Source: an uncultured delta proteobacterium (GTDB lineage Bacteria; RBG-13-61-14; DRUE01). From it: a stretch of DNA of 11,100 nt. Made by a program: the position numbers and the translations under genes. Under the pieces are notes generated by a model. That model had not been told where the DNA came from. It saw nothing but the letters and a program-made list of their open reading frames with translations, and made no database searches. Where the stretch lies: NCBI GenBank assembly GCA_903930515.1, contig CAIYYW010000039.1:1-11100 (forward strand), written 5' to 3'. This document shows positions 251 through 11,100 of the stretch, in pieces. How positions within the stretch are numbered: the first letter of the stretch is position 1; every line of letters begins with the position of its first letter.

Positions 251-922
251 ATGCCTCAGAAGCGACTTACGAGAATCATAGACCAGGTCCAGACCCGGCT
301 CGCATTGCTCAAGGAGATGGGCATCGCCGAGCTTCCGGCCGAGAAGGTTGATCCGGTCTATTCGGCGCTCCGGAAGCTGCGGGAGGAGATGGGGGATTGC
401 CGGAGATGCGAACTGGGAAAAACCCGGACTTGCATCGTGTTCGGAGAGGGAGACCCCAAGTCGGAGTTGATGTTTGTGGGAGAGGCTCCGGGCGAGGACG
501 AGGACTTGAGCGGGAAACCCTTTGTGGGAGCCGCGGGAAGGCTGCTCACGGATATTATAGAACTGGGGATGAAGATCCCGAGGCGGAAGGTTTTTATCGG
601 CAATGTCCTGAAATGCCGGCCGCCTGAAAACCGGGACCCGCTTCCGGAGGAAGTGAAGGAATGCCGGGTTTTTCTGGAAAGGCAGATCGGGATCATCCGA
701 CCCCGGGTGATTGTGGCTCTGGGCAAGCACGCGGCGCATTTATTGATGGGCGGGAACGACCCGATCAGCCGGCTCCGGGGCAACTGGGGGGAATTTCAAG
801 GCATCCCGGTGATGCCCACTTATCATCCGGCGTATTTACTGTATAATAGCTCGGGCAAGCGCGAGGTCTGGAACGACATCAAACAGGTGCTTCAATTTCT
901 GGAAAAGGAGAATTCTAGATGA
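251..922 (+). CDS. Family 4 uracil-DNA glycosylase (iron-sulfur type)
   Basis: The 223-residue protein removes uracil (from cytosine deamination or misincorporation) from DNA to start base excision repair in the cytoplasm. Visible family 4 marks are the GEAPG active-site motif at 77-81, FVGAAGRLL at 91-99, the NVLKCRPP segment at 118-125, and a second active-site block around TYHPAYLL at 190-197 with His192. Four cysteines, Cys50, Cys53, Cys122 and Cys138, are at the positions expected to bind the 4Fe-4S cluster. Length and the N-terminal extension before the CxxC are normal for the bacterial branch, which includes proteins once labelled phage SPO1 DNA polymerase-related. The ATG at 251 lacks a clear Shine-Dalgarno; a later Met (codon 23) would still leave the domain intact. 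Its stop overlaps the NfeD start (ATGA), so the two are translationally coupled, although no functional link is known. Confidence 0.93.
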   Translation: MPQKRLTRIIDQVQTRLALLKEMGIAELPAEKVDPVYSALRKLREEMGDCRRCELGKTRTCIVFGEGDPKSELMFVGEAPGEDEDLSGKPFVGAAGRLLTDIIELGMKIPRRKVFIGNVLKCRPPENRDPLPEEVKECRVFLERQIGIIRPRVIVALGKHAAHLLMGGNDPISRLRGNWGEFQGIPVMPTYHPAYLLYNSSGKREVWNDIKQVLQFLEKENSR

Positions 923-2223
923 AAAGGCGGGTCTTGGTGGCGGCCGTTTCCCTGGCAATGATTTTTTTCTGCAGGCCCGGCCGGGCGGAGCGGATTTTCA
1001 AGATCAAGATTGACGGGATCATTGACAATTCGGTGGCCAACTATGTGATCAAGGGGATTGAGCAGGCCGAGACCCGGGGAGGCCAGGCCGTGATCATCAC
1101 CGTGGACACCCCGGGCGGGATGCTGGACGCCACCAAGGACATTGTCAAGAAATTTTTCGACTCCAAGATTCCGATCGTGGTTTTTGTCTCCCCCAAGGGG
1201 GCGAGCGCGACCAGCGCGGGGATGATGATCACGATCGGGGCGCACCTGGCGGTGATGGCTCCGGGGACCAATATCGGGGCTGCTCATCCGGTGATGATGC
1301 CGTTTATGGTCCAGTACCAGCCGGTCCCGGAGAACGATATAATGATGAAAAAAGCCACCCAGGACACGGTTGGCTGGGTCAGGTCGGTCTGCCAGGAGCG
1401 GGGACGGAACGCGGACTGGGCCGAGAAGGCGGTTAAGGACAGCGAATCCATCACCGCCCAGGAGGCGCTCAAGCTCAAGGTGATTGACGGGATCTCGGAG
1501 GATCCGGAGCAACTGCTCAAGTGGCTGGACGGAAAAAGCGTCAGGCTGTCCCAGGAAAAAACGGTCATTATCCAAACCAACGGCGCGGAAGTGGAAGCGG
1601 TGGAGATGAATTTGGGACAGGTCCTCCAGCATATCATCAACAATCCCAATGTGATCCTGGTGCTGTTGCTGCTGGGGGCTTTGGGGATCGCGCTGGAATT
1701 CAAGGCGCCCGGAATGATCTTCCCGGGGGTGATCGGGGCGGCGCTGGTGCTGATCGCGTTGGCGGCGCCCACCCTTCAGGTCAACTATATCGGGCTGGTC
1801 CTGATCATTTTGGGCATCGCCTGCCTGATTGCGGAGATTTTTATCACCAGTTATGGTATGCTGACCGTTGCGGGTCTGGCGTTTTTAACCTATGGCTCGT
1901 TGATGCTATTTGAGACGGAAAGGAGTTGGAATGTGAGGGTAAGCTGGGCAATATTGATTCCGATCATAGTTTTTGTCGCGGTGGTGCTGCTGGTGGTGGG
2001 GGAGCGGATTTTAAGGGCGCACCGATCCCAGGTGGAAACCGGGAACGAGGAACTGATCGGGATGGAAGGCGAGGTTTCCACTGATCTCAATCCCAACGGC
2101 AAGGTCTTTGTCCACGGCGAATACTGGAACGCGATCAGCGTGAGCGGAGAACTGAAGCAAGGCGAGGCCGTGACGGTGACGGGCGTGGATAAATTCACCC
2201 TTCGGGTAAAGAAGAAATCTTAA
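919..2223 (+). CDS. NfeD family membrane-bound serine protease (ClpP class)
   Basis: This is a long-form NfeD protein of 434 residues. A signal peptide (about 1-23) precedes a periplasmic ClpP/crotonase-fold protease domain (about 26-205). Its likely catalytic serine is Ser99 in the SATSAGMMI context, and the conserved AHPV and RGRNADWAEKAV segments follow. The lysine of the Ser-Lys dyad is probably Lys144 or Lys145. About five transmembrane helices span 244-361, and a C-terminal NfeD OB-fold (about 375-434, with GMEGEV and HGEYWNA) lies in the cytoplasm. In the archaeal homologue PH1510, the protease cuts the hydrophobic C-terminus of its stomatin partner. The slipin gene follows after 18 bases, so the same partnership is inferred here. 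The start is supported by AAGGAG at 905-910 and the signal peptide. It overlaps the glycosylase stop by 4 bases. Confidence 0.93.
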   Translation: MKRRVLVAAVSLAMIFFCRPGRAERIFKIKIDGIIDNSVANYVIKGIEQAETRGGQAVIITVDTPGGMLDATKDIVKKFFDSKIPIVVFVSPKGASATSAGMMITIGAHLAVMAPGTNIGAAHPVMMPFMVQYQPVPENDIMMKKATQDTVGWVRSVCQERGRNADWAEKAVKDSESITAQEALKLKVIDGISEDPEQLLKWLDGKSVRLSQEKTVIIQTNGAEVEAVEMNLGQVLQHIINNPNVILVLLLLGALGIALEFKAPGMIFPGVIGAALVLIALAAPTLQVNYIGLVLIILGIACLIAEIFITSYGMLTVAGLAFLTYGSLMLFETERSWNVRVSWAILIPIIVFVAVVLLVVGERILRAHRSQVETGNEELIGMEGEVSTDLNPNGKVFVHGEYWNAISVSGELKQGEAVTVTGVDKFTLRVKKKS

Positions 2224-2241
2224 AAAAGAGGAGGACACAAA

Positions 2242-3015
2242 ATGGCAGGCGGATTTGTCGGACTGATTCTACTGATTGTCTTCGGGCTGATCCTGCTCGG
2301 GATGATGGTGAAGATTCTAAACGAGTACGAGCGGGCGGTGGTGTTCCGGCTGGGAAGGGTGCTGGAGCGGCCCAAGGGGCCGGGGCTGATCCTGCTGATC
2401 CCGGTGGTTGACCGGGCGGTCCGGGTGAGCCTGAGGACCGTGGTCTTGGACATTCCGCCCCAGGATGTGATCACCCTGGACAATGTGACCTTGAAGGTCA
2501 ACGCCGTGGTCTATTTCCGGGTGATGGACCCCTTGAAGGCGATCATCCAGGTAGAGAACTATCTTTATGCCACCAGCCAGTTCTCCCAGACCACGCTCCG
2601 CAGCGTTCTGGGACAGGCGCATTTGGACGAGATTCTTGCCAACCGCGAGAAGCTGAACCTGGAACTGCAGACCATCCTGGACAAACATACCGATCCCTGG
2701 GGGATCAAGGTCAGCTCGGTGGAAATCAAGCAGGTGGACCTGCCCCAGGAAATGCAGCGGGTAATCGGACGCCAGGCCGAGGCCGAGCGGGAAAAGCGGG
2801 CCAAGATCATTCACGCGGAAGGAGAGTTCCAGGCCGCGAAACAACTCAGCGCGGCCGCCAATGTCATCGCCCAAAGCCCGTTGGCGCTTCAACTTCGCTA
2901 CCTGCAGACCCTGACCGAGATCGCCGCGGAGAACAATTCCACCATTGTCTTCCCGGTGCCGATTGATCTGATCACGGCCTTTATGGATTTGGCGAAGAAA
3001 CCTCAATCGCAATAA
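2242..3015 (+). CDS. Slipin (stomatin-like SPFH/band-7 protein)
   Basis: This 257-residue protein is of the usual slipin size. A single N-terminal membrane segment (4-24) is followed by an SPFH/band-7 domain (about 26-175), recognisable from [24 protein letters not shown] and the [16 protein letters not shown] block. A helical, charged region (175-205, rich in Ala/Glu) then mediates oligomerisation. The C-terminus carries [13 protein letters not shown] (232-244), the hydrophobic stretch that NfeD proteases cleave in the archaeal PH1510/PH1511 pair. Slipins form membrane-associated rings or scaffolds. A strong GAGGAGG site at 2228-2234 sets the start. The gene sits between its NfeD partner and two more SPFH genes, which points to a multi-component membrane microdomain complex. 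Confidence 0.94.
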
Positions 3016-3031
3016 TAAAGGAGGACTGGGA

Positions 3032-4114
3032 ATGGCTGTCTTCGGCGGGAAAAAACAGGAAGGCGCGGGAGAGACAAAACCGACCCGTGGCTCCACCGGC
3101 CGGGGTTTCCTATACCTGGCCGGAATCCTGATCCTGGCCGCGGCCGTCTCAGTCCTTTTGATCCTCAGCCTGAGAAAAGTGAGCGCCGACCAAGTCGGGC
3201 TGAGGGTGGTCAAATTCGGGTTCGGGTTCTGGAAGACCGGTTCCGAATGGGGCAAGCCGCTCCCGCCCGGGTATCACCCGATCCTTCCGGGTTTCCACGA
3301 GTTCTCGGTCTATCAGAAGAACCTGCAATTTTTTGAGATGACCTCCAAGTCGGGCGGAATCCGGTCGCCCGACTATTCGTCGCTGGAGATCCGGACTTCC
3401 GACGGATATAAGGTCAATGTTGACCTCACCATCCTTTACCGGGTGATGGACGGCCGGGCCAATGTGGTCCGGGTTTTTTATCGGAACGACCGGGAGCTCA
3501 AGGAAAAAGGGCTCCAGGCGGTTGCGCCCGGGATTCTCCAGAATAAGTTGAGCGAACTCGCGTACGCGCAGGAATTTTACAATTCCACGCTCCGGGCGGA
3601 AAAAATTAAATTGGCCCTCAAAATGCTCAATCAACATTTCGCCCCGCAGGGGATTGAAATTACGGACATCGTGATCCGCGACTACGAGTTCCCGCAGGAA
3701 TACGAAGCCGCGATCCTGCGCAAGGTTCTGGCCGAACAGCTCAAGCGGGTCCAGGAATCCCTGGCCAAAGCCGCGGAGGCCGAGGCGGGCTGGAAGAAGA
3801 TCATCGCCTTTGGAAACCGCGACGCGGAAGTGGAGCGCGCCATCGGCCGGGCCGACTCCCAAAAGCTGGAGGCGGAGGGAGATCGGATCAAGACCGAGCT
3901 GTCCGCTCAGGGAGACAAATCCAAACTGCTCTCCCAGGCCAAGGGCAAACGCCAGATCGTCAATGCCCTGTCCTCCCCGGGCGGCAAGGTCTATGTCGGC
4001 CTGGAATACGCCAAGGTCTTTGAAGGGCTGGATTTAATTATCCTCCCCTCGGGCAAGGGCGGGATCAATCCCTTTGAGGTCAAGGAACAAGTCCGGAAGA
4101 TGGAGAACAAGTAG
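3032..4114 (+). CDS. Membrane-anchored SPFH/band-7 protein, paralogue 1
   Basis: This 360-residue protein has a short basic cytoplasmic tail, one transmembrane helix (about 25-47), an SPFH domain (about 51-225) and a charged coiled-coil-like region (about 228-305). It ends in a conserved-looking segment (316-347, including YVGLEYAKVFEGLDLIILPS). The SPFH marks are DQVGLRVV, the PPGYHPILPG turn, SDGYKVNVDLTILYRV and GIEITDIVIRDYEFPQEY. It resembles prohibitin/HflK-like SPFH proteins more than slipin, but I cannot assign a named subfamily. A strong AAAGGAGG site at 3017-3024 supports the ATG. It follows slipin by 16 bases and precedes a second, related SPFH gene by 6 bases, so the three are surely one transcript. 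Its C-terminal segment aligns by eye with that of the next protein, suggesting a duplication. Confidence 0.88.
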   Translation: MAVFGGKKQEGAGETKPTRGSTGRGFLYLAGILILAAAVSVLLILSLRKVSADQVGLRVVKFGFGFWKTGSEWGKPLPPGYHPILPGFHEFSVYQKNLQFFEMTSKSGGIRSPDYSSLEIRTSDGYKVNVDLTILYRVMDGRANVVRVFYRNDRELKEKGLQAVAPGILQNKLSELAYAQEFYNSTLRAEKIKLALKMLNQHFAPQGIEITDIVIRDYEFPQEYEAAILRKVLAEQLKRVQESLAKAAEAEAGWKKIIAFGNRDAEVERAIGRADSQKLEAEGDRIKTELSAQGDKSKLLSQAKGKRQIVNALSSPGGKVYVGLEYAKVFEGLDLIILPSGKGGINPFEVKEQVRKMENK

Positions 4115-4120
4115 GAGCCG

Positions 4121-5275
4121 ATGATGAGCAGGATTAAATTGATCGGGTTGATCGTGGCTATGTTCGGATTTTCTCTCGCGTCCTGCATCCAGGTCCAGGG
4201 AGATGAAATCGGCGTAAGGGTGTTTAACTTGTATCAAGGAGTGGAGAAAAAGGCCAAAAGGACCGGAACTTATTTCTATCTGCCCGGGGTGTTTGATTTT
4301 TATCTCTTCCCCAAAACCCAGCAGAAGCTGGAGATGGTGGAGTCGTCGGAAATCCCGTCGGCTCCCGCGGAGCAGAAGATGAACCTGCCCCAGGCCCCGC
4401 CTAATCAGAACCTGGAATTGGAGATGACCAAGGTTGAAGAGCAGATGCAGAAGATCCAGGCGGTGCAGGTGATCCCGCATAAGCGGGCCGAGGGCCGGAA
4501 CAATATCCGGCTCAAGACCGCGGACGGGAATGACATCTGGGTGGATGTCACGGTCACCTACCAGGTGAAGGAAGAGTTGGCCCCGGTCCTGCTCCAGAAG
4601 GTTGGCCCGAAACTTCCCGACCTGGAACGGCTGGTCGGGGTGGAAACCCGGGGAGTGATCAGAGAGGTGCTGGGCTCGCTGGAGACCAGGGATTTTTATC
4701 AATCGCTGGCCCGCGAGCGGAGATTGGAAGAGGCCTTTCAATTGCTCAACCAGAAGCTGAATCCGCTGGGAATAAAAATCAACAGCCTCAACATCAATCA
4801 ATTCCGGTTCCTGCCCGAATACGAAGACCTGCTCCGGGAACGAGCCTTGGCCGACCAGAAACAGCAGGAATACCAGGAACTCACCCTGGCCGGAGAACAG
4901 GAACGCCAGGCCAAAATCAACAAGGCCAAAGGAGACGCCCAGGCGATGGTCGCGCTCTCGGAAGGGATCAAACGGCAACGACAACTGGAGGGGGAGGCCG
5001 AGCTGTATTCCAAAAAGCAGGAAGCCCTGGCTACCGAGGCGACCTTGCTCAATCAGGCCGAGGGGCTGAGGCAACTGACCAGCAGCCTTTCCGGACCCGG
5101 CGGGGACAACCTGGTCGCAACCGAGCTGGCCCGATCGCTCCAGGGCAAGCGGATGATTCTGATACCCGGCGAGGGGAATTCGGTCAACCTCCTCAATCTG
5201 AATGAACTGATTGAGAAATACGGCAGCTTGAAATATCTGGAAGAAAAATCTGAAACCAACCGCGAAAAGAAATAA
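4121..5275 (+). CDS. SPFH/band-7 protein, paralogue 2, putative lipoprotein
   Basis: The 384-residue protein starts with a signal sequence ending in LASC (19-22), a good lipobox with Cys22 as the predicted lipidated residue and Ile at +2. An SPFH domain follows, with DEIGVRVF and TGTYFYLPG near residues 28-55, TADGNDIWVDVTVTYQV at 133-149, and NPLGIKINSLNINQFRFLPEYE at 214-235. Between the first and second parts lies an insertion (about 70-125) rich in Pro, Gln and Glu that the upstream paralogue lacks. Residues 235-320 are a long charged coiled coil rich in Gln and Glu. The tail (GPGGDN, ILIPGEGN) matches the upstream paralogue's end. A GGAG lies just before the start; Met2 is an equally possible start. 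If truly lipidated it would be an unusual SPFH protein; otherwise the hydrophobic segment is an ordinary anchor. Confidence 0.85.
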   Translation: MMSRIKLIGLIVAMFGFSLASCIQVQGDEIGVRVFNLYQGVEKKAKRTGTYFYLPGVFDFYLFPKTQQKLEMVESSEIPSAPAEQKMNLPQAPPNQNLELEMTKVEEQMQKIQAVQVIPHKRAEGRNNIRLKTADGNDIWVDVTVTYQVKEELAPVLLQKVGPKLPDLERLVGVETRGVIREVLGSLETRDFYQSLARERRLEEAFQLLNQKLNPLGIKINSLNINQFRFLPEYEDLLRERALADQKQQEYQELTLAGEQERQAKINKAKGDAQAMVALSEGIKRQRQLEGEAELYSKKQEALATEATLLNQAEGLRQLTSSLSGPGGDNLVATELARSLQGKRMILIPGEGNSVNLLNLNELIEKYGSLKYLEEKSETNREKK

Positions 5276-6705
5276 TGAAGTCCTCTTTCTTCGGTTCCAA
5301 TCTGCGAAGGCAGGAAATCATCCTCTACCTGGTGCTCCTTTCAGCCGCGATCTCTGTCTCCGTGCTCTTCGCCCAGGAAAAATTACTCTCTTTCCTGATC
5401 GGGATCATCATCCTCGCCGTGGTCGCCTGGTGCCGGCTTAATATCAAACGCTGGGTCTATCTGGTTTTTGTTTTTATGCCCATCTCCCCGGTAGTCAATG
5501 TGGTTCAACTCCGGATGCCGGTCTCCTCTGAATTGGACGATTTCGTGGTCTTAATCGCCATTCTGGTTTTCCTGCTCAATTTCATCGTCCAGCCCAAAAT
5601 CCTGAAAAGGAAAACCGATTCATATCTGTTTCTTCCCCTATCTTTATATGTCATGGCCTGCGCCTTAAGCTCGGTGCTGGGATTCTATTTCCATCGTGAT
5701 CCGATGCTGGTCGCGAATGCCCTGGGCCATTTATTCAAGTGGTCAAGTTATGTCTTCATCTATTTTATTGTCTTCCAGGTTTTTGACCAAGAAAAGGATA
5801 TGAAAAAATTATTGAAAGTGATCCTGGTTTCTTTCAGCATCGGCGCGGTGATCACCGTTTATAATTACCTGAAGTTCTCGGGCCAGACGAGCGGACTTTA
5901 TCGGGCTGCGGGTTTGACGGAAGGACTAAATGTATACGCGGTGGTTCTGGCGGTCATCCTGACCTTTTTTTACAGTTTAATCCTGTCGGGTAAGTCCAAG
6001 GAGTTGTTCCCGCGATGGATGATGTTGGCTTTCTGGTCAATTATACTTATTGCCCTGATCACCACTTTTTCCCGAACCAGTTGGCTGGCGCTTTGGGCCT
6101 GCCTGATCGCGATCTCCATCTTCCGGAAAAGAAGATATGTCGCAGTGGCTTTAATCACGGTGGCCGCGCTTAATTTTCTGATCCTGCGCGGCCCGGTGGA
6201 AGAAAGGATCAAGGGGACTTTTGAACAACAATCATGGTCCTCCCTGCCCGTGGATTTGGGCGGAAGGGAATTGATCTGGCAGAAGGCGATAATAAGGATT
6301 GGGCACAACTATTTTATCGGAGTAGGCTATTCCAACTTCGGCCAGGTCTTGATGGGAACCACTGCTCACAATCAGTACTTGGGGATTTTGGGTGAAAGCG
6401 GCTTGCTGGGGTTGGCGGCTTTTATTTTATTCGCATACCGATTGGTTAAAGCCCAGATTTACCTGGCACGGAATCATCCCTTGCCCTTTTACCGGGAATG
6501 CGCCCGGGGAATTTTGCCCGGCCTGATCGCGATGTTGGTCGTCTCGGTTGCGGGAGAGTATTTTTATTCCTCCACGGGGATACTCGTTTTACTGTCGCTT
6601 TATTCGGCTTCGCGGGTCACTTTCCCGAAGGAAAATCCTAAGCTTTTGCCGGAACCATACCCCTTGGGGGCAAAACCGGTCATTTATGGATATGGCCAGC
6701 ATTAA
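5275..6705 (+). CDS. O-antigen ligase/polymerase-like membrane protein (Wzy_C type)
   Basis: This 476-residue protein has about ten to twelve transmembrane helices and the Wzy_C (O-antigen ligase/polymerase) signature. That signature comprises TFSRTSWLALW (264-274), a periplasmic loop with Arg331 (GGRELIWQKA), the GHNYFIGVGYSNF block (343-355) and AHNQYLGILGESGLLGL (364-380). Such enzymes either join undecaprenyl-linked glycan repeat units into a polymer (Wzy) or transfer a finished glycan to an acceptor (WaaL-like or protein O-oligosaccharyltransferase). Sequence alone does not separate these roles. Its ATG overlaps the TAA of the preceding SPFH gene by one base (TAATG), giving translational coupling. 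It begins the polysaccharide block, and a second, divergent family member follows at once, overlapping its 3' end by 20 bases. Confidence 0.87.
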   Translation: MKSSFFGSNLRRQEIILYLVLLSAAISVSVLFAQEKLLSFLIGIIILAVVAWCRLNIKRWVYLVFVFMPISPVVNVVQLRMPVSSELDDFVVLIAILVFLLNFIVQPKILKRKTDSYLFLPLSLYVMACALSSVLGFYFHRDPMLVANALGHLFKWSSYVFIYFIVFQVFDQEKDMKKLLKVILVSFSIGAVITVYNYLKFSGQTSGLYRAAGLTEGLNVYAVVLAVILTFFYSLILSGKSKELFPRWMMLAFWSIILIALITTFSRTSWLALWACLIAISIFRKRRYVAVALITVAALNFLILRGPVEERIKGTFEQQSWSSLPVDLGGRELIWQKAIIRIGHNYFIGVGYSNFGQVLMGTTAHNQYLGILGESGLLGLAAFILFAYRLVKAQIYLARNHPLPFYRECARGILPGLIAMLVVSVAGEYFYSSTGILVLLSLYSASRVTFPKENPKLLPEPYPLGAKPVIYGYGQH

Positions 6706-8209
6706 TAATTCAATGAAAACCGCCTCCGCTGATAGAATATTTGCGACCGGAGTCGGCTTATATCTGGTTTATGTATTTTCTCTTCCCTTTATGGTGTTCC
6801 CGGCCCTAAACTTTCTGGGGCATCAAATTCAAATAAGCGATTTTATTTTTATTCCCTTGGCCTTGTTCTCGGCCTGTCTCTGGCTTAAAAACAGGGTTAA
6901 ACTGGATCAGGGGTATATCCTGTCCGGGGCTCTGATCATTCTGACCATGGGGCTGGAACTTTCAATCGCGGACAATTTAATTAAAGCAGGGCTGAGGATT
7001 ATCATTCAAGTTTATCTACTCTTTATTTTCTGTATATCTTTCTTGATGGCGAGGATGATGAAAGAGCTCAAACCTATATTCCTGAGCTGGGCCGCGAGCG
7101 CGGCGGCGATCATTTTTGCGGGGATGATCGGCATCGTCTTGTATTATTTCGGTTTTGATTTCAGAATAAATTTACTTCTCGCCAGCTATGGAATGGCGCT
7201 CCCTTCCCTTCCGCTCCCGCGGGTTAAAAGCTTCCTGGTGGGCGCCGAATATTTAGCGAATTATTTAATCCCTTCTTTCTTCTTCCTTTATTACGGGCGC
7301 CGGTCCGGGAATCGTTATCTGAGGAGCTGTTTTATCTATTTCCCGATCTTGGCCGGACTGGTGGTGGTTGACCTGCTCACTTTTTCCCAGGCGTTTTTTC
7401 TTTGGGCGGTTCCATTGCTTGCCTGGAAAAGCATTTTCCCCGGCAAGAGAATTGCCCGCTGGAAAACCCTGGCCGGGACTTTTCTGATCTCCTTGATTTT
7501 GATGGAAGTTGTTATGGGCAGTTTCTTCAGCATCGCCCTCTCCAAGCCGGAAACCAGGTCCCCGCTTCCGGGCAGGCTTTCAAGAATTCTGATTAAACCC
7601 GGCATCAGGCAGGAGTTCTGGGGGGGAGCCATCGCACAAATCAAGGAACATCCGTTCCTGGGCCTGGGACTGGACCGGCCGGGCACCGGCCCCTTGAAAT
7701 TCGGCAACTGCAAGGGCTGCGATTTACCCGAAGGGGCAGACGCCCATAACCTCGTCCTTAATCTCTGGTCAACCCGCGGTTTCTTGGGTATGATCAGTTA
7801 TCTGATTTTCCTCCTGGTGATCCTCTCCAAATCAACCAGGGCGGTTTTCCGCGGACCGGCTTCTCTGGAGATTCAGGTTCTGTTCTGGGCGGTGATCGGA
7901 ATGGTCTTGACTTCCTTTTTCGTGGACATTGAAGACTTCCGGCACCTGTATCTCTGCCTGGGATTGCTTGCCGGTTTATCCAGCCGGCCGGCAGTTGACG
8001 CTCCGGTTCGGCTTTGCCGTCTGTCCGATCCCCAGGCCCATTCCCCCTTGAAAGCGCCTGAAAACGGAATTCCAGGAGCGGTTGACTCCGCTTCTTCCAT
8101 TTTGCAGATTGCTTTTAATCGGATTGCGCGTATATTTTTGGAAATTTGGCCGGCAATCCGCGGATTTCCAGGTTCCCAGGGTTTGAAAATGTTCAGGCGG
8201 TTGAGTTAA
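6686..8209 (+). CDS. Second, divergent O-antigen ligase/polymerase-like protein
   Basis: The reading frame stays open from 6548, but I place the start at ATG 6686 (507 residues). Upstream codons overlap the previous gene deeply and give a basic non-membrane sequence. ATG 6692 or 6713 are alternatives, as no strong ribosome site is visible. About ten transmembrane helices fill 18-432. The Wzy_C-like loop shows RQEFWGGAIAQIKEHPFLGLGLD (split at Arg308, His322, Gly326) and AHNLVLNLWSTRGFLGM (353-369). Where the neighbour has FSRTSW, this one has FSQAFF (233-238), so the usual arginine is missing. The loop holds a CxxC (Cys342, Cys345). After the last helix comes a tail of about 75 residues without an obvious domain, which is unusual. 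The role is probably glycan polymerisation or ligation; division of labour with the preceding gene is inferred. Confidence 0.78.
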   Translation: MDMASINNSMKTASADRIFATGVGLYLVYVFSLPFMVFPALNFLGHQIQISDFIFIPLALFSACLWLKNRVKLDQGYILSGALIILTMGLELSIADNLIKAGLRIIIQVYLLFIFCISFLMARMMKELKPIFLSWAASAAAIIFAGMIGIVLYYFGFDFRINLLLASYGMALPSLPLPRVKSFLVGAEYLANYLIPSFFFLYYGRRSGNRYLRSCFIYFPILAGLVVVDLLTFSQAFFLWAVPLLAWKSIFPGKRIARWKTLAGTFLISLILMEVVMGSFFSIALSKPETRSPLPGRLSRILIKPGIRQEFWGGAIAQIKEHPFLGLGLDRPGTGPLKFGNCKGCDLPEGADAHNLVLNLWSTRGFLGMISYLIFLLVILSKSTRAVFRGPASLEIQVLFWAVIGMVLTSFFVDIEDFRHLYLCLGLLAGLSSRPAVDAPVRLCRLSDPQAHSPLKAPENGIPGAVDSASSILQIAFNRIARIFLEIWPAIRGFPGSQGLKMFRRLS

Positions 8210-8222
8210 AAGGAGAGTTTGG

Positions 8223-9608
8223 GTGTTATTCAACTCCAATTTGTATCTGATCTTTGTGATGGCCGTGACCGGACTGTATTTCATTTTGCCCTTCAAATGG
8301 CGGCGCTGGCTGCTTTTAGCCGCCAGTTTTATTTTTTATATGAAATGGTCGGTTTCGTTGGTTGTGCTGATCCTTTATGTGGTTGCATTAAACTATGGGG
8401 CGGCGCTCGGGATGGCCCGGGCGGAGAGGAAATCAATTAAGAAGGTCATCTTGTGGATTTCGGTGGTCGGCAGTCTCGCTCTGCTTTTTACTTTCAAGTA
8501 TCTGGATTTTTTTATCAGAAGCGCGTCCTGGGTTCTGAGCCTGGAAGGCAGCGCCCAGTATAATCTGATCCTGCCCATCGGGATATCCTTTTACACCTTC
8601 CAGGCGATGAGTTATACGATTGATGTTTACCGGGGCACGATCCGGGCCGAGCATTCTCTTTTGGATTTCACCTTGTATATAATGTTCTTTCCTAAACTGC
8701 CGGCGGGTCCGATTATGCGAGCTTCCGCGCTCCTGCCGGAATTGCGCAAGGAGACCAAACCGGACCTGGAAAGGTTCATTACCGGAGCCATGATCATAGC
8801 CGGCGGCTTAATAAAAAAAGTGGTCATTGCGGACACCGTTGCCCGGTATGTGGACCAGGTTTTTACTTCACCCGGCAATTTCAGCGGCGCCACGCTGTTG
8901 GTCGCCAGCTACGGTTTTGCCTTGCAGATTTATTGCGATTTTTCCGGATATACCGACATCGCAATCGGAACCGGCAAATTATTGGGCATTGAGCTAATGG
9001 AAAATTTCCGCGCCCCATATCTTTCCCAGAGCTTCCGGGAGTTCTGGCGGAGATGGCATATATCTCTTTCCACCTGGCTCAGGGATTATCTGTATATCTC
9101 CCTGGGCGGCAACCGCCAGGGCCGCTTTCGGACTTATCTCAATATTTTCGTCACTATGCTCCTGGGCGGGCTCTGGCACGGAGCCAATTACACCTTTTTA
9201 GTCTGGGGAGGGCTCCATGGCTTATTCCTGGCAGGAGAACGATGGCTGGCAGATCGCCGGGGAGCGCCCAAGTCAAACACTATTTTCGGAATCTGGATGA
9301 GAAGGCTGATTATCTTCCATCTGGTGTGCCTGCTCTGGATCTTTTTCCGGGCACATAATCTTACCGACGCTTTTACAGTCATTGCCGGGATTTTTTCCTG
9401 GACCCCGGGCAGGTCTCTGGGCTTTTATCCCATATATTTGCTTTTCGCCCTGATCTCTTTTGAGGTTTTCAATCAAAGGCGGAATGTGGTCAGTCTGGTT
9501 TTGCGCCATCCCCTGCTCGCAAGATGGCTTCTTTATGCTATCTTCATAATCATGCTCGTGATTTTTTCCGGGGCGAGAAGTCAGGAATTTATCTATTTTC
9601 AGTTCTAG
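8223..9608 (+). CDS. MBOAT family O-acyltransferase, AlgI-like
   Basis: This 461-residue multi-pass membrane protein transfers acyl (typically acetyl) groups across the inner membrane toward secreted polysaccharide. Marks of the AlgI/DltB-type MBOAT family are the MLFNS start, LILPIGISFYTFQAMSY (115-131), QIYCDFSGYTDIAIG (235-249) and FREFWRRWHISLSTWLRDYLY (271-291, His279). Also present are GGLWHGANYTFLVWGGLHG (315-333) with the catalytic His319, and the typical C-terminal FIYFQF. Length is normal for the family. The start is GTG, fixed by AAGGAG at 8211-8215 and by the family's conserved MLFNS N-terminus. It follows the second ligase/polymerase by 13 bases. The next gene encodes an SGNH-type protein, the usual partner that receives or transfers the acyl group on the periplasmic side (as AlgJ/AlgX do for alginate). 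The acyl substrate and glycan are unknown. Confidence 0.92.
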   Translation: MLFNSNLYLIFVMAVTGLYFILPFKWRRWLLLAASFIFYMKWSVSLVVLILYVVALNYGAALGMARAERKSIKKVILWISVVGSLALLFTFKYLDFFIRSASWVLSLEGSAQYNLILPIGISFYTFQAMSYTIDVYRGTIRAEHSLLDFTLYIMFFPKLPAGPIMRASALLPELRKETKPDLERFITGAMIIAGGLIKKVVIADTVARYVDQVFTSPGNFSGATLLVASYGFALQIYCDFSGYTDIAIGTGKLLGIELMENFRAPYLSQSFREFWRRWHISLSTWLRDYLYISLGGNRQGRFRTYLNIFVTMLLGGLWHGANYTFLVWGGLHGLFLAGERWLADRRGAPKSNTIFGIWMRRLIIFHLVCLLWIFFRAHNLTDAFTVIAGIFSWTPGRSLGFYPIYLLFALISFEVFNQRRNVVSLVLRHPLLARWLLYAIFIIMLVIFSGARSQEFIYFQF

Positions 9609-9656
9609 CCTTTTCCTGGAGGATGAGTTAGGAAAAATGATTCGGAGCCGGAGCTG

Positions 9657-10772
9657 ATGACGGACCTTGGGCCATCCGGGCGGCCTTTCTGGAAACAGGC
9701 GATGAGCGCCCTGATCACGGACCTCTTGATCTTTCTGCTTCTGGTCGGGGGAGGGGAATTATTTCTGCGCTTCTTTGTTCCCTCGGCCCGGAAATTCATT
9801 TACACCAAAGATCTGACCGGAGGACATCCCCTGGTCTTAAACAGCGCGGGACTGAGAGACGATGAGATTGATCAAAATTTTCCGGAAAATGGCATTCGGA
9901 TCATCATCCTGGGCAATTCCGTCACTTTTGGAACCGGCATCGCCGTTGAGGATACCTTTGCCAGTCAACTGGAATCGTGGCTCAAGCATCGGGGGGATGG
10001 CATTAAATATGATGTAATTAATGCCGGCGGTCAGGGCAACAGTATGGAGATGTCTTTGAAATTCCTGGATCAGCATGAATTGGAATACCATCCGGACGCC
10101 GTGGTGGTGGCGCTAACCTCCGGCTATGTGGCTTTGCAGAAAATGCAGACTCAAGTCCCTCAACTTCAGGGTTCAAAAAAATTGATTTACACTTTAACTC
10201 ACATCCCCTTTCAACTACATTTGGCCCTTTATGCCCATACCTATACTTATATTGCTTTTGACACTTTAGTCCGGCAATTATTGTTTACCATCGGACTCTC
10301 CAGGGAGAACCTGAATAAAACCGAAGATTACCTGTTCGGATACGCGATGGATGTTCCCTCCATCCGGCTTTCGGAGGTGGAAGCATCCTACGGGGAGATC
10401 TCAAGAGAATTCGGATTATTGAAACAACGGCTGGACAGCCAGGGCATCCCTCTTTTGATCGTGGCAATTCCTACCCAGTTTGAGTTGAGCGACCTTCGCC
10501 AGGATAATCATAGGAATGTGCCCAAAGATAAAATCCGGATCATACCCGGCAAGCGCTTCCAAGAGATCGCGGAAGAGCAGGGAATCACTTTTATCAACTT
10601 GCTGCCGGACTTAAGGGAAAAACGACAGGGGATGATCGCAGGTAAAATTGCTTATGACCCCCTTTACATCTCTTTTGACACCATTCATCTGAATCCGACC
10701 GGGCATCGCCTGGTAGCGGAAAAGCTTGAGCAAATGCTTGGCGCCAATGGGATTATTCCGCCTCTGAAATGA
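9657..10772 (+). CDS. Membrane-anchored SGNH/GDSL-like protein, MBOAT partner
   Basis: This 371-residue protein has one N-terminal membrane helix (about 18-40) and an extracytoplasmic SGNH-fold domain (about 80-360). Block I is ILGNSVTFGTG (84-94) with Ser88; the usual GDS is GNS here. Block II is likely Gly124 in INAGGQGNS. Block V is FDTIHLNPTGH (340-350), giving Asp341 and His344, which with Ser88 complete the triad. Block III, normally GxND, reads LTSGY (153-157), so the Asn that helps the oxyanion hole is missing. Such proteins next to MBOATs act as O-acetyltransferases or esterases on surface glycans. Here transfer or removal of acyl groups after the upstream MBOAT is inferred. The start at 9657 has GGAG motifs at 9644-9647 and 9650-9653. 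The distance to the MBOAT gene is 48 bases. Confidence 0.84.
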   Translation: MTDLGPSGRPFWKQAMSALITDLLIFLLLVGGGELFLRFFVPSARKFIYTKDLTGGHPLVLNSAGLRDDEIDQNFPENGIRIIILGNSVTFGTGIAVEDTFASQLESWLKHRGDGIKYDVINAGGQGNSMEMSLKFLDQHELEYHPDAVVVALTSGYVALQKMQTQVPQLQGSKKLIYTLTHIPFQLHLALYAHTYTYIAFDTLVRQLLFTIGLSRENLNKTEDYLFGYAMDVPSIRLSEVEASYGEISREFGLLKQRLDSQGIPLLIVAIPTQFELSDLRQDNHRNVPKDKIRIIPGKRFQEIAEEQGITFINLLPDLREKRQGMIAGKIAYDPLYISFDTIHLNPTGHRLVAEKLEQMLGANGIIPPLK

Positions 10773-10818: not shown

Positions 10819-10846
10819 TTGACAAGAGAGAATTTTTTAGTATTAT
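10819..10846 (+). promoter_or_regulatory. Sigma70-type promoter for the leader and last gene
   Basis: A perfect TTGACA (-35, 10819-10824) is followed after 16 bases by TATTAT (-10, 10841-10846). The surrounding DNA is AT-rich, unlike the coding parts. Transcription would start near 10853, about 200 bases before the ATG at 11052, giving a long structured leader. It starts a new transcription unit after the polysaccharide genes. Confidence 0.72.
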
Positions 10847-10900
10847 TTTGATTGGAAGTTGTTTTTAGCTTTTATAGGGAAATGCAAATAGCTCAGAGCG

Positions 10901-10925
10901 CTTGGATCCAGAAACCTGGACCGAG
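10901..10925 (+). other. Leader hairpin with one bulged A
   Basis: CTTGG (10901-10905) pairs with CCGAG (10921-10925), including one G-U pair, and TCCAG (10907-10911) pairs with CTGGA (10916-10920). Only A10906 is left unpaired, and the loop is AAAC. Ten pairs with a single bulge in 25 bases is a strong stem. Confidence 0.7.
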
Positions 10926-10953
10926 ACCGAGGAGAGTAGGGAAAGACAGCATC

Positions 10954-10984
10954 GGCGGCTGACCCCGGAACAGGGCGGCTGACC
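10954..10984 (+). repeat. Duplicated 11-bp leader element GGCGGCTGACC
   Basis: Exact copies lie at 10954-10964 and 10974-10984, 20 bases apart. The second copy can fold alone as GCGG-CTGA-CCGC (10975-10986). Alternatively, either copy can pair through GG-CGGCT with the AGCC-CC part of the terminator's left arm. This suggests a repeated ligand-binding or antiterminator element. Confidence 0.7.
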
Positions 10985-10998
10985 GCGAGCAGAGAATC

Positions 10999-11030
10999 AA
11001 GCCTCCCGGTTGGGCGCGGGAGGCTTTTTT
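10999..11030 (+). terminator. Intrinsic terminator / attenuator before the last gene
   Basis: GCCTCCCG (11001-11008) pairs perfectly with CGGGAGGC (11017-11024) around an 8-base loop; AA/TT adds two outer pairs. TTTTTT follows at 11025-11030. It sits only about 20 bases before the ATG and upstream of the gene's own ribosome site. It would therefore stop transcripts before the gene unless it is prevented from folding, and it is best read as an attenuator. It may also end read-through from the polysaccharide genes. Confidence 0.85.
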
Positions 11031-11051
11031 ATTTGGGAAAGGAGAACTGGG

Positions 11052-11100
11052 ATGGAGAAGAAGAAAAAGGTCACGATCCTGGAAATTGCCGCGCTGAAGC
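11052..11100 (+). CDS. Start of a gene, possibly panB (runs off the window)
   Basis: Only 16 codons are visible: MEKKKKVTILEIAALK. AAAGGAG at 11038-11044, 7 bases before the ATG, gives a good ribosome site. The VTI-x-E-I-x-x-L-K spacing resembles the N-terminus of PanB (3-methyl-2-oxobutanoate hydroxymethyltransferase, first step of pantothenate synthesis), where VT...L...MK precedes the conserved GEKI and TAYDY region. The main alternative is a LacI-type regulator, whose N-terminus is similar (VTIKDIA-x-L), but there Ala or Ser rather than Lys usually follows the Leu. The attenuator-type leader favours a biosynthetic enzyme. The next 20 residues outside the window would decide. Confidence 0.4.
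   Translation, partial: MEKKKKVTILEIAALK

Follow-up and report, generated by a model that had tools for sequence, protein, structure and literature searches.

The window, the whole 11,100-nt stretch of DNA that was analysed, comes from an uncultured delta proteobacterium. Positions 919-5275 encode an NfeD protein and then three consecutive SPFH/Band 7 proteins. Positions 5275-10772 hold two adjoining O-antigen-ligase-type (Wzy_C) genes, then an MBOAT gene and a GDSL/AlgX-like gene, and look like a surface polysaccharide acylation cluster. Beyond them lie a leader and the beginning of one more gene:

10819-10846, plus strand: sigma-70-type promoter, TTGACA-16-TATTAT, with 11 of 12 consensus matches by scan.
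10899-10932, plus strand: pan hairpin, CGCUUGG-A-UCC, loop, GGACCGAG-A-C, then the tail CGAGG; sub-threshold match to RF01749 and match to our model R1.
10915-10936, plus strand: putative 5' strand of the antiterminator, made of the pan hairpin's 3' half and tail, complementary to about 11003-11020; duplex -23.6 kcal/mol.
10953-10985, plus strand: middle hairpin formed by two GGCGGCTGACC copies, with bulged A10982, in folds of the window and of a same-genus leader.
10999-11033, plus strand: intrinsic terminator (attenuator) found by scan, with stem 10999-11008/11017-11026 and then a T run.
11052-11100, plus strand: predicted panB start (MEKKKKVTILEIAALK), truncated where the contig ends; it shares 11 of 16 residues with the PanB start of the same-genus genome.

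The leader precedes what we infer to be a full panB gene. The contig stops at base 11100, so that 16 codons of this gene are present, and their translation matches MEPKKKVTILDLAAMKQAGKK, the PanB N-terminus of a same-genus genome (G001). The identification as panB considered in the preliminary description therefore stands as far as 16 codons allow. PF02548 (panB) has no match anywhere in the window's own assembly, which is expected if panB was lost in the gap after the contig. The neighbourhood in G001 agrees: its upstream MBOAT gene is 40% identical over 384 residues, the gene end directly before the leader resembles an SGNH hydrolase by eye, and panB is preceded by the same promoter-hairpin-terminator leader. 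The second relative, the same-order genome G002, is that of Deltaproteobacteria bacterium RBG_13_61_14, and its leader sequence is identical to that of locus L158 in the survey described below.

The stretch before this gene is a genuine leader RNA of a pantothenate (vitamin B5) gene. Its promoter and strong terminator are each the sole one that the scan found in their own 500-base region, bearing out the promoter and the terminator right before the ribosome site that had been noticed at first reading; the promoter is near consensus. The G001 leader has a TTGACA-17-TATCCT promoter at the equivalent place and the same order of elements (promoter, pan hairpin, middle hairpin, terminator, panB), and the terminator position is equivalent in both G001 and G002. 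Retention of the hairpin, terminator and promoter layout in G001 goes beyond chance; the preliminary description had named a lack of structural conservation in relatives as counting against it.

The sensor candidate is a bulged-A hairpin of the pan type. Its paired strands, 10901-10911/10916-10925, leave A10906 and A10926 unpaired, confirming the bulged-A hairpin seen by inspection, and both bulged A's are matched in alignments to RF01749 and to R1. The outer stem pairs are partly lost in the window, where C10899 faces C10928; window and G002 alike have ACCG where ACGG is expected.

Rfam recognizes this element below its threshold. At gathering cut-offs no family matched the window. With cut-offs removed, RF01749 (pan) was the top family by bits, at 23.1 bits against a cut-off of 36.2. 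The suggested scan with pan, T-box and other models thus gave nothing above cut-off but did bring up pan as a sub-threshold candidate. Other weak matches (AaHKsRNA41, M23, isrJ and the like) lay far below their own cut-offs and were set aside. The RF01749 model spans two hairpins, and agreement in the window is confined to the 3' hairpin; the 5' half of the alignment lands on the promoter -10 region, and we rejected it as a first pan hairpin. RF01749 reaches its own cut-off in two of the 60 genomes of our relatives set. Of 18 other hairpin leaders tested, 3 pass it, so this cut-off, a curation threshold rather than a biological feature, excludes most single-hairpin members. A G001 match to Rfam at C486 (L012, 23.5 bits) falls within an open reading frame and was discarded as chance; RF01749 missed the genuine pan element of G001, at C5:10402.

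A one-hairpin model identified the element specifically. This model, R1, was made with nine panB leaders, none of them from this order, and scored 31.6 bits at 10892-10933 (E 1.2e-6 in the window). Searched against the whole genome, it ranked the window hairpin best (E 3.9e-4), with the next match at E 0.95. The model also finds the panB leaders of G001 and G002. Across the 60 genomes, the window's own among them, matches at E 0.1 or better occur in 16, and nine of these positive leaders were R1's own input; strong matches stand directly before panB, or before panC in one genome (G037). Covariation inside the hairpin amounts to two pairs with double changes, counted in the nine leaders, as loci selected by exact letters cannot reveal covariation within it. 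R1 matched the leader only once, and the tandem arrangement is absent. Of the two proposals first made for this leader, the divergent pan motif before panB is supported by the sub-threshold RF01749 match, the genome-wide rank under R1 and the panB-like codons. The other, a new class with tandem sensing units, falls away: there is one pan hairpin, and the repeats are not sensing units. From sequence and structure, we consider it likely that the leader belongs to the pan RNA family RF01749 as a diverged form with one hairpin, and that it attenuates panB transcription.

Hairpins of this kind occur before pantothenate genes in many lineages. An exact pattern of conserved letters, scanned over GTDB species genomes, gave at least 118 loci. 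By tblastn, the first gene among the loci listed was panB in 76, a Rossmann reductase-like gene in 18, panC in 9, an ECF ATPase gene in 5, panD in 2 and BioY in 1; the Rossmann reductase-like genes adjoin panB or panC. Where at least 500 bases lay downstream, 107 of 111 listed loci precede pantothenate genes or ECF transporters. Record titles of the loci listed name Acidobacteriota, Chloroflexota, Bacillota, several deltaproteobacterial groups, Myxococcales, Binatia, Nitrospinota, Nitrospirota, Dadabacteria, Methylomirabilota, Coatesbacteria, Spirochaetes and Dormibacterota. A relaxed pattern, which diverged partners may escape, placed a second pan-like match nearby in at most a handful of those listed. 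The terminator scan was positive in 73 of the 118 loci listed; in a set of 130 leaders, 82 hairpins are followed by a terminator.

Several loci carry the hairpin in other gene contexts. In four Spirochaetes loci (L113, L128, L153, L170) operons for ECF-type transporter ATPases begin with a pan hairpin, and in L170 an ECF substrate-specific component (PF12822) follows the ATPase; these systems are candidate transporters of pantothenate or a precursor. In Clostridiaceae bacterium BRH_c20a (L183) the hairpin is followed by a BioY-family gene and then a type III pantothenate kinase gene; pantothenate or a precursor, and not biotin, may be the substrate of this BioY. On an Anaerolineales contig (L110) a perfect pan hairpin precedes a phosphonate-binding-type ABC substrate protein (PF12974).

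The hairpin can also overlie the end of the gene before it. In L076, L094, L102, L120, L158, L189 and about 22 further loci it covers the upstream gene's last codons, which encode a C-terminal PLGS; where checked, that gene encodes a deoxynucleoside kinase (PF01712). Deoxynucleoside kinases without a pan-like element behind them lack the PLGS ending, and one in G033 ends in PLGSR beside an apparent degraded pan element. It seems that the RNA determines how the protein ends. In G002 the kinase gene immediately precedes the pan hairpin and panB; the window's genome and G001 have MBOAT and SGNH genes there instead, plus a separate promoter. PF01712 has no match in the whole genomes of these two.

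The 3' strand of the pan hairpin is complementary to the terminator that follows it. Terminators often show CCUUCCGGA-(C)UCGGUCC across left arm and loop, which is complementary to the hairpin 3' strand and tail, GGACCGAGACGGAAGG. We compared duplex energies in 81 leaders whose terminators had been chosen without regard to the hairpin. Hairpins paired with their own terminators averaged -21.2 kcal/mol against -18.9 with swapped ones, and none of 5000 permutations did as well. Reverse-complementing the own terminators, a control for lineage and stem composition, brought the average to -15.7 kcal/mol (p 4e-12). Other terminators on the same contig stretch averaged -12.2 kcal/mol, the own one being best in 22 of 24 loci. 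The result held with dissimilar representatives only, with 0/5000 permutations for sets of 54 and 26 and 1/5000 for 13. The hairpin's last 13 bases alone also beat swapped terminators. Its 5' strand was not convincingly better than with swapped terminators across all leaders, and gave no effect among dissimilar representatives. Three leaders (L131, L161 and L166) have a shifted register and retain the pairing. Because complementarity exceeds both the swapped and the reversed controls, the 3' strand of the pan hairpin is the most likely antiterminator. The attenuation before panB that had been suggested at the outset gains support from the conservation of this complementarity in the 81 leaders.

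Individual leaders vary in how clearly they point to this strand. Its duplex with the terminator is predicted at -23.6 kcal/mol in the window, -30.5 in G001 and -19.1 in G002, where a middle segment reaches -20.3 and is on a par with it; single leaders therefore do not decide, and the comparison across leaders does. When the RNA is folded without the terminator's right arm, the upper pan hairpin frequently persists and antitermination falls to the tail alone, so the two states do not fully exclude each other.

We propose that the pan hairpin acts as the sensor of a panB transcription attenuator. An effector, either a metabolite of pantothenate/CoA synthesis or a protein, would hold the hairpin with its two bulged A's closed. 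With the effector bound, the 3' strand would be occupied, the terminator would form and panB would be off. Without it, the 3' strand and tail (GGACCGAGAC-CGAGG) would pair with the terminator's left arm and loop, prevent termination and let panB be read. That effector binding means OFF is deduced from the anatomy of the leader, and the effector is likewise presumed. The presence of such hairpins ahead of ECF transporter and pantothenate kinase genes restricts the probable signal to pantothenate or CoA status. Our literature search found no paper on the pan effector, nor on its mechanism beyond the 2010 description (PMC2864571); the later papers found just list pan before panB.

Within this attenuator model, the pan hairpin could be a protein site rather than a metabolite aptamer, a sub-case to which we give somewhat less than an even chance and which does not exclude the general scheme. 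The family's authors suggested protein binding for tandem pan RNAs (PMC2864571). A 34-nt hairpin is, in our judgement, small for an aptamer. Their dimer argument does not transfer to the single hairpin found here and in most of the at least 118 loci listed, however, and none of the present results points to a particular protein.

Of the two repeat pairs in this leader, one mostly builds a second structure. Both pairs lie as first described: TAGGGAAA at 10875 and 10937, 62 apart, and GGCGGCTGACC at 10954 and 10974, 20 apart. About 0.3 exact 8-mer pairs are expected by chance in some 200 nt, by our estimate. The TAGGGAAA repeat, roughly at chance level and absent from the two relatives, was rejected as a signal. 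The GGCGGCTGACC repeat is really 14 nt at 93%, and a repeat of 11-14 nt exceeds chance. For the most part the two copies form opposite arms of a single hairpin, CGGCUG being quasi-palindromic and self-pairing when G-U is allowed. Folds of the window and G001 leaders share this middle-hairpin architecture with different bases. We regard the middle hairpin as most probably a spacer within the loop of the antiterminator, as the folding models suggest.

An improbable rival has the second GGCGGCTGACC capture the left arm of the terminator while the pan hairpin plays an indirect part. The 7 of 8 pairs between GGGCGGCU and AGCCUCCC reported for this copy and the left arm are there by inspection, and the middle element's duplex in the window, -23.0 kcal/mol, comes near that of the pan strand. 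In G001, however, it falls well short of the pan strand (-18.8 versus -30.5 kcal/mol), leaders with hairpin-terminator spacers of 10-25 nt have no room for it, and full-length folds lock the second GGCGGCTGACC inside the middle hairpin. The antiterminator role first assigned to this copy is therefore possible in the window but weak in G001 and absent from short-spacer leaders. It is equally doubtful that the terminator is constitutive, ending the upstream operon or setting basal panB expression while the pan hairpin acts through mRNA stability or a protein bound to nascent RNA: the terminator is predicted to form in the window's full-length fold, and 45 of the at least 118 loci listed (about 38%) have none by scan, but the promoter sits between upstream gene and terminator, and across phyla the terminator sequence changes together with the 3' strand of the pan hairpin.

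With the pan 3' strand as the preferred antiterminator, single-hairpin pan RNAs are likely to be widespread attenuators of pantothenate synthesis, and probably of uptake, in ten or more phyla, the sensor's 3' strand serving as antiterminator and a ligand or protein as effector. The conserved-complementarity model points to the strands to mutate and predicts that effector binding turns panB off. Ligand or protein screens could also use the single-hairpin forms, which are much smaller RNAs.

Two known riboswitch-type leaders were considered and rejected. The GGAGAGTAG segment at 10931-10939 recalls the T-box and the THF riboswitch, and PanB uses a folate cofactor. Neither the T-box nor the THF Rfam model matched up to E 10.

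Transcription-attenuating riboswitches and protein-controlled attenuators have a sensor hairpin, an antiterminator and a terminator that compete for shared strands. The window's leader resembles them in this competition; unlike them, it would sense through one small hairpin that supplies the antiterminator from its own 3' strand. The closest known system is the pan RNA motif (RF01749), with which the leader shares the two conserved bulged A's of the stem, almost the same conserved letters and a place upstream of panB, other pan members standing before panC and panD. It differs in having one hairpin rather than the usual tandem, in its weakened outer pairs and in its score below the Rfam cut-off. 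The original description (Weinberg et al. 2010, PMC2864571) has most members, not all, in tandem and gives three phyla for pan RNAs. The complementarity of the terminator to the hairpin's 3' strand goes unmentioned in the main-text pan passage of that paper, and the evidence for attenuation is a useful addition to this known orphan family.
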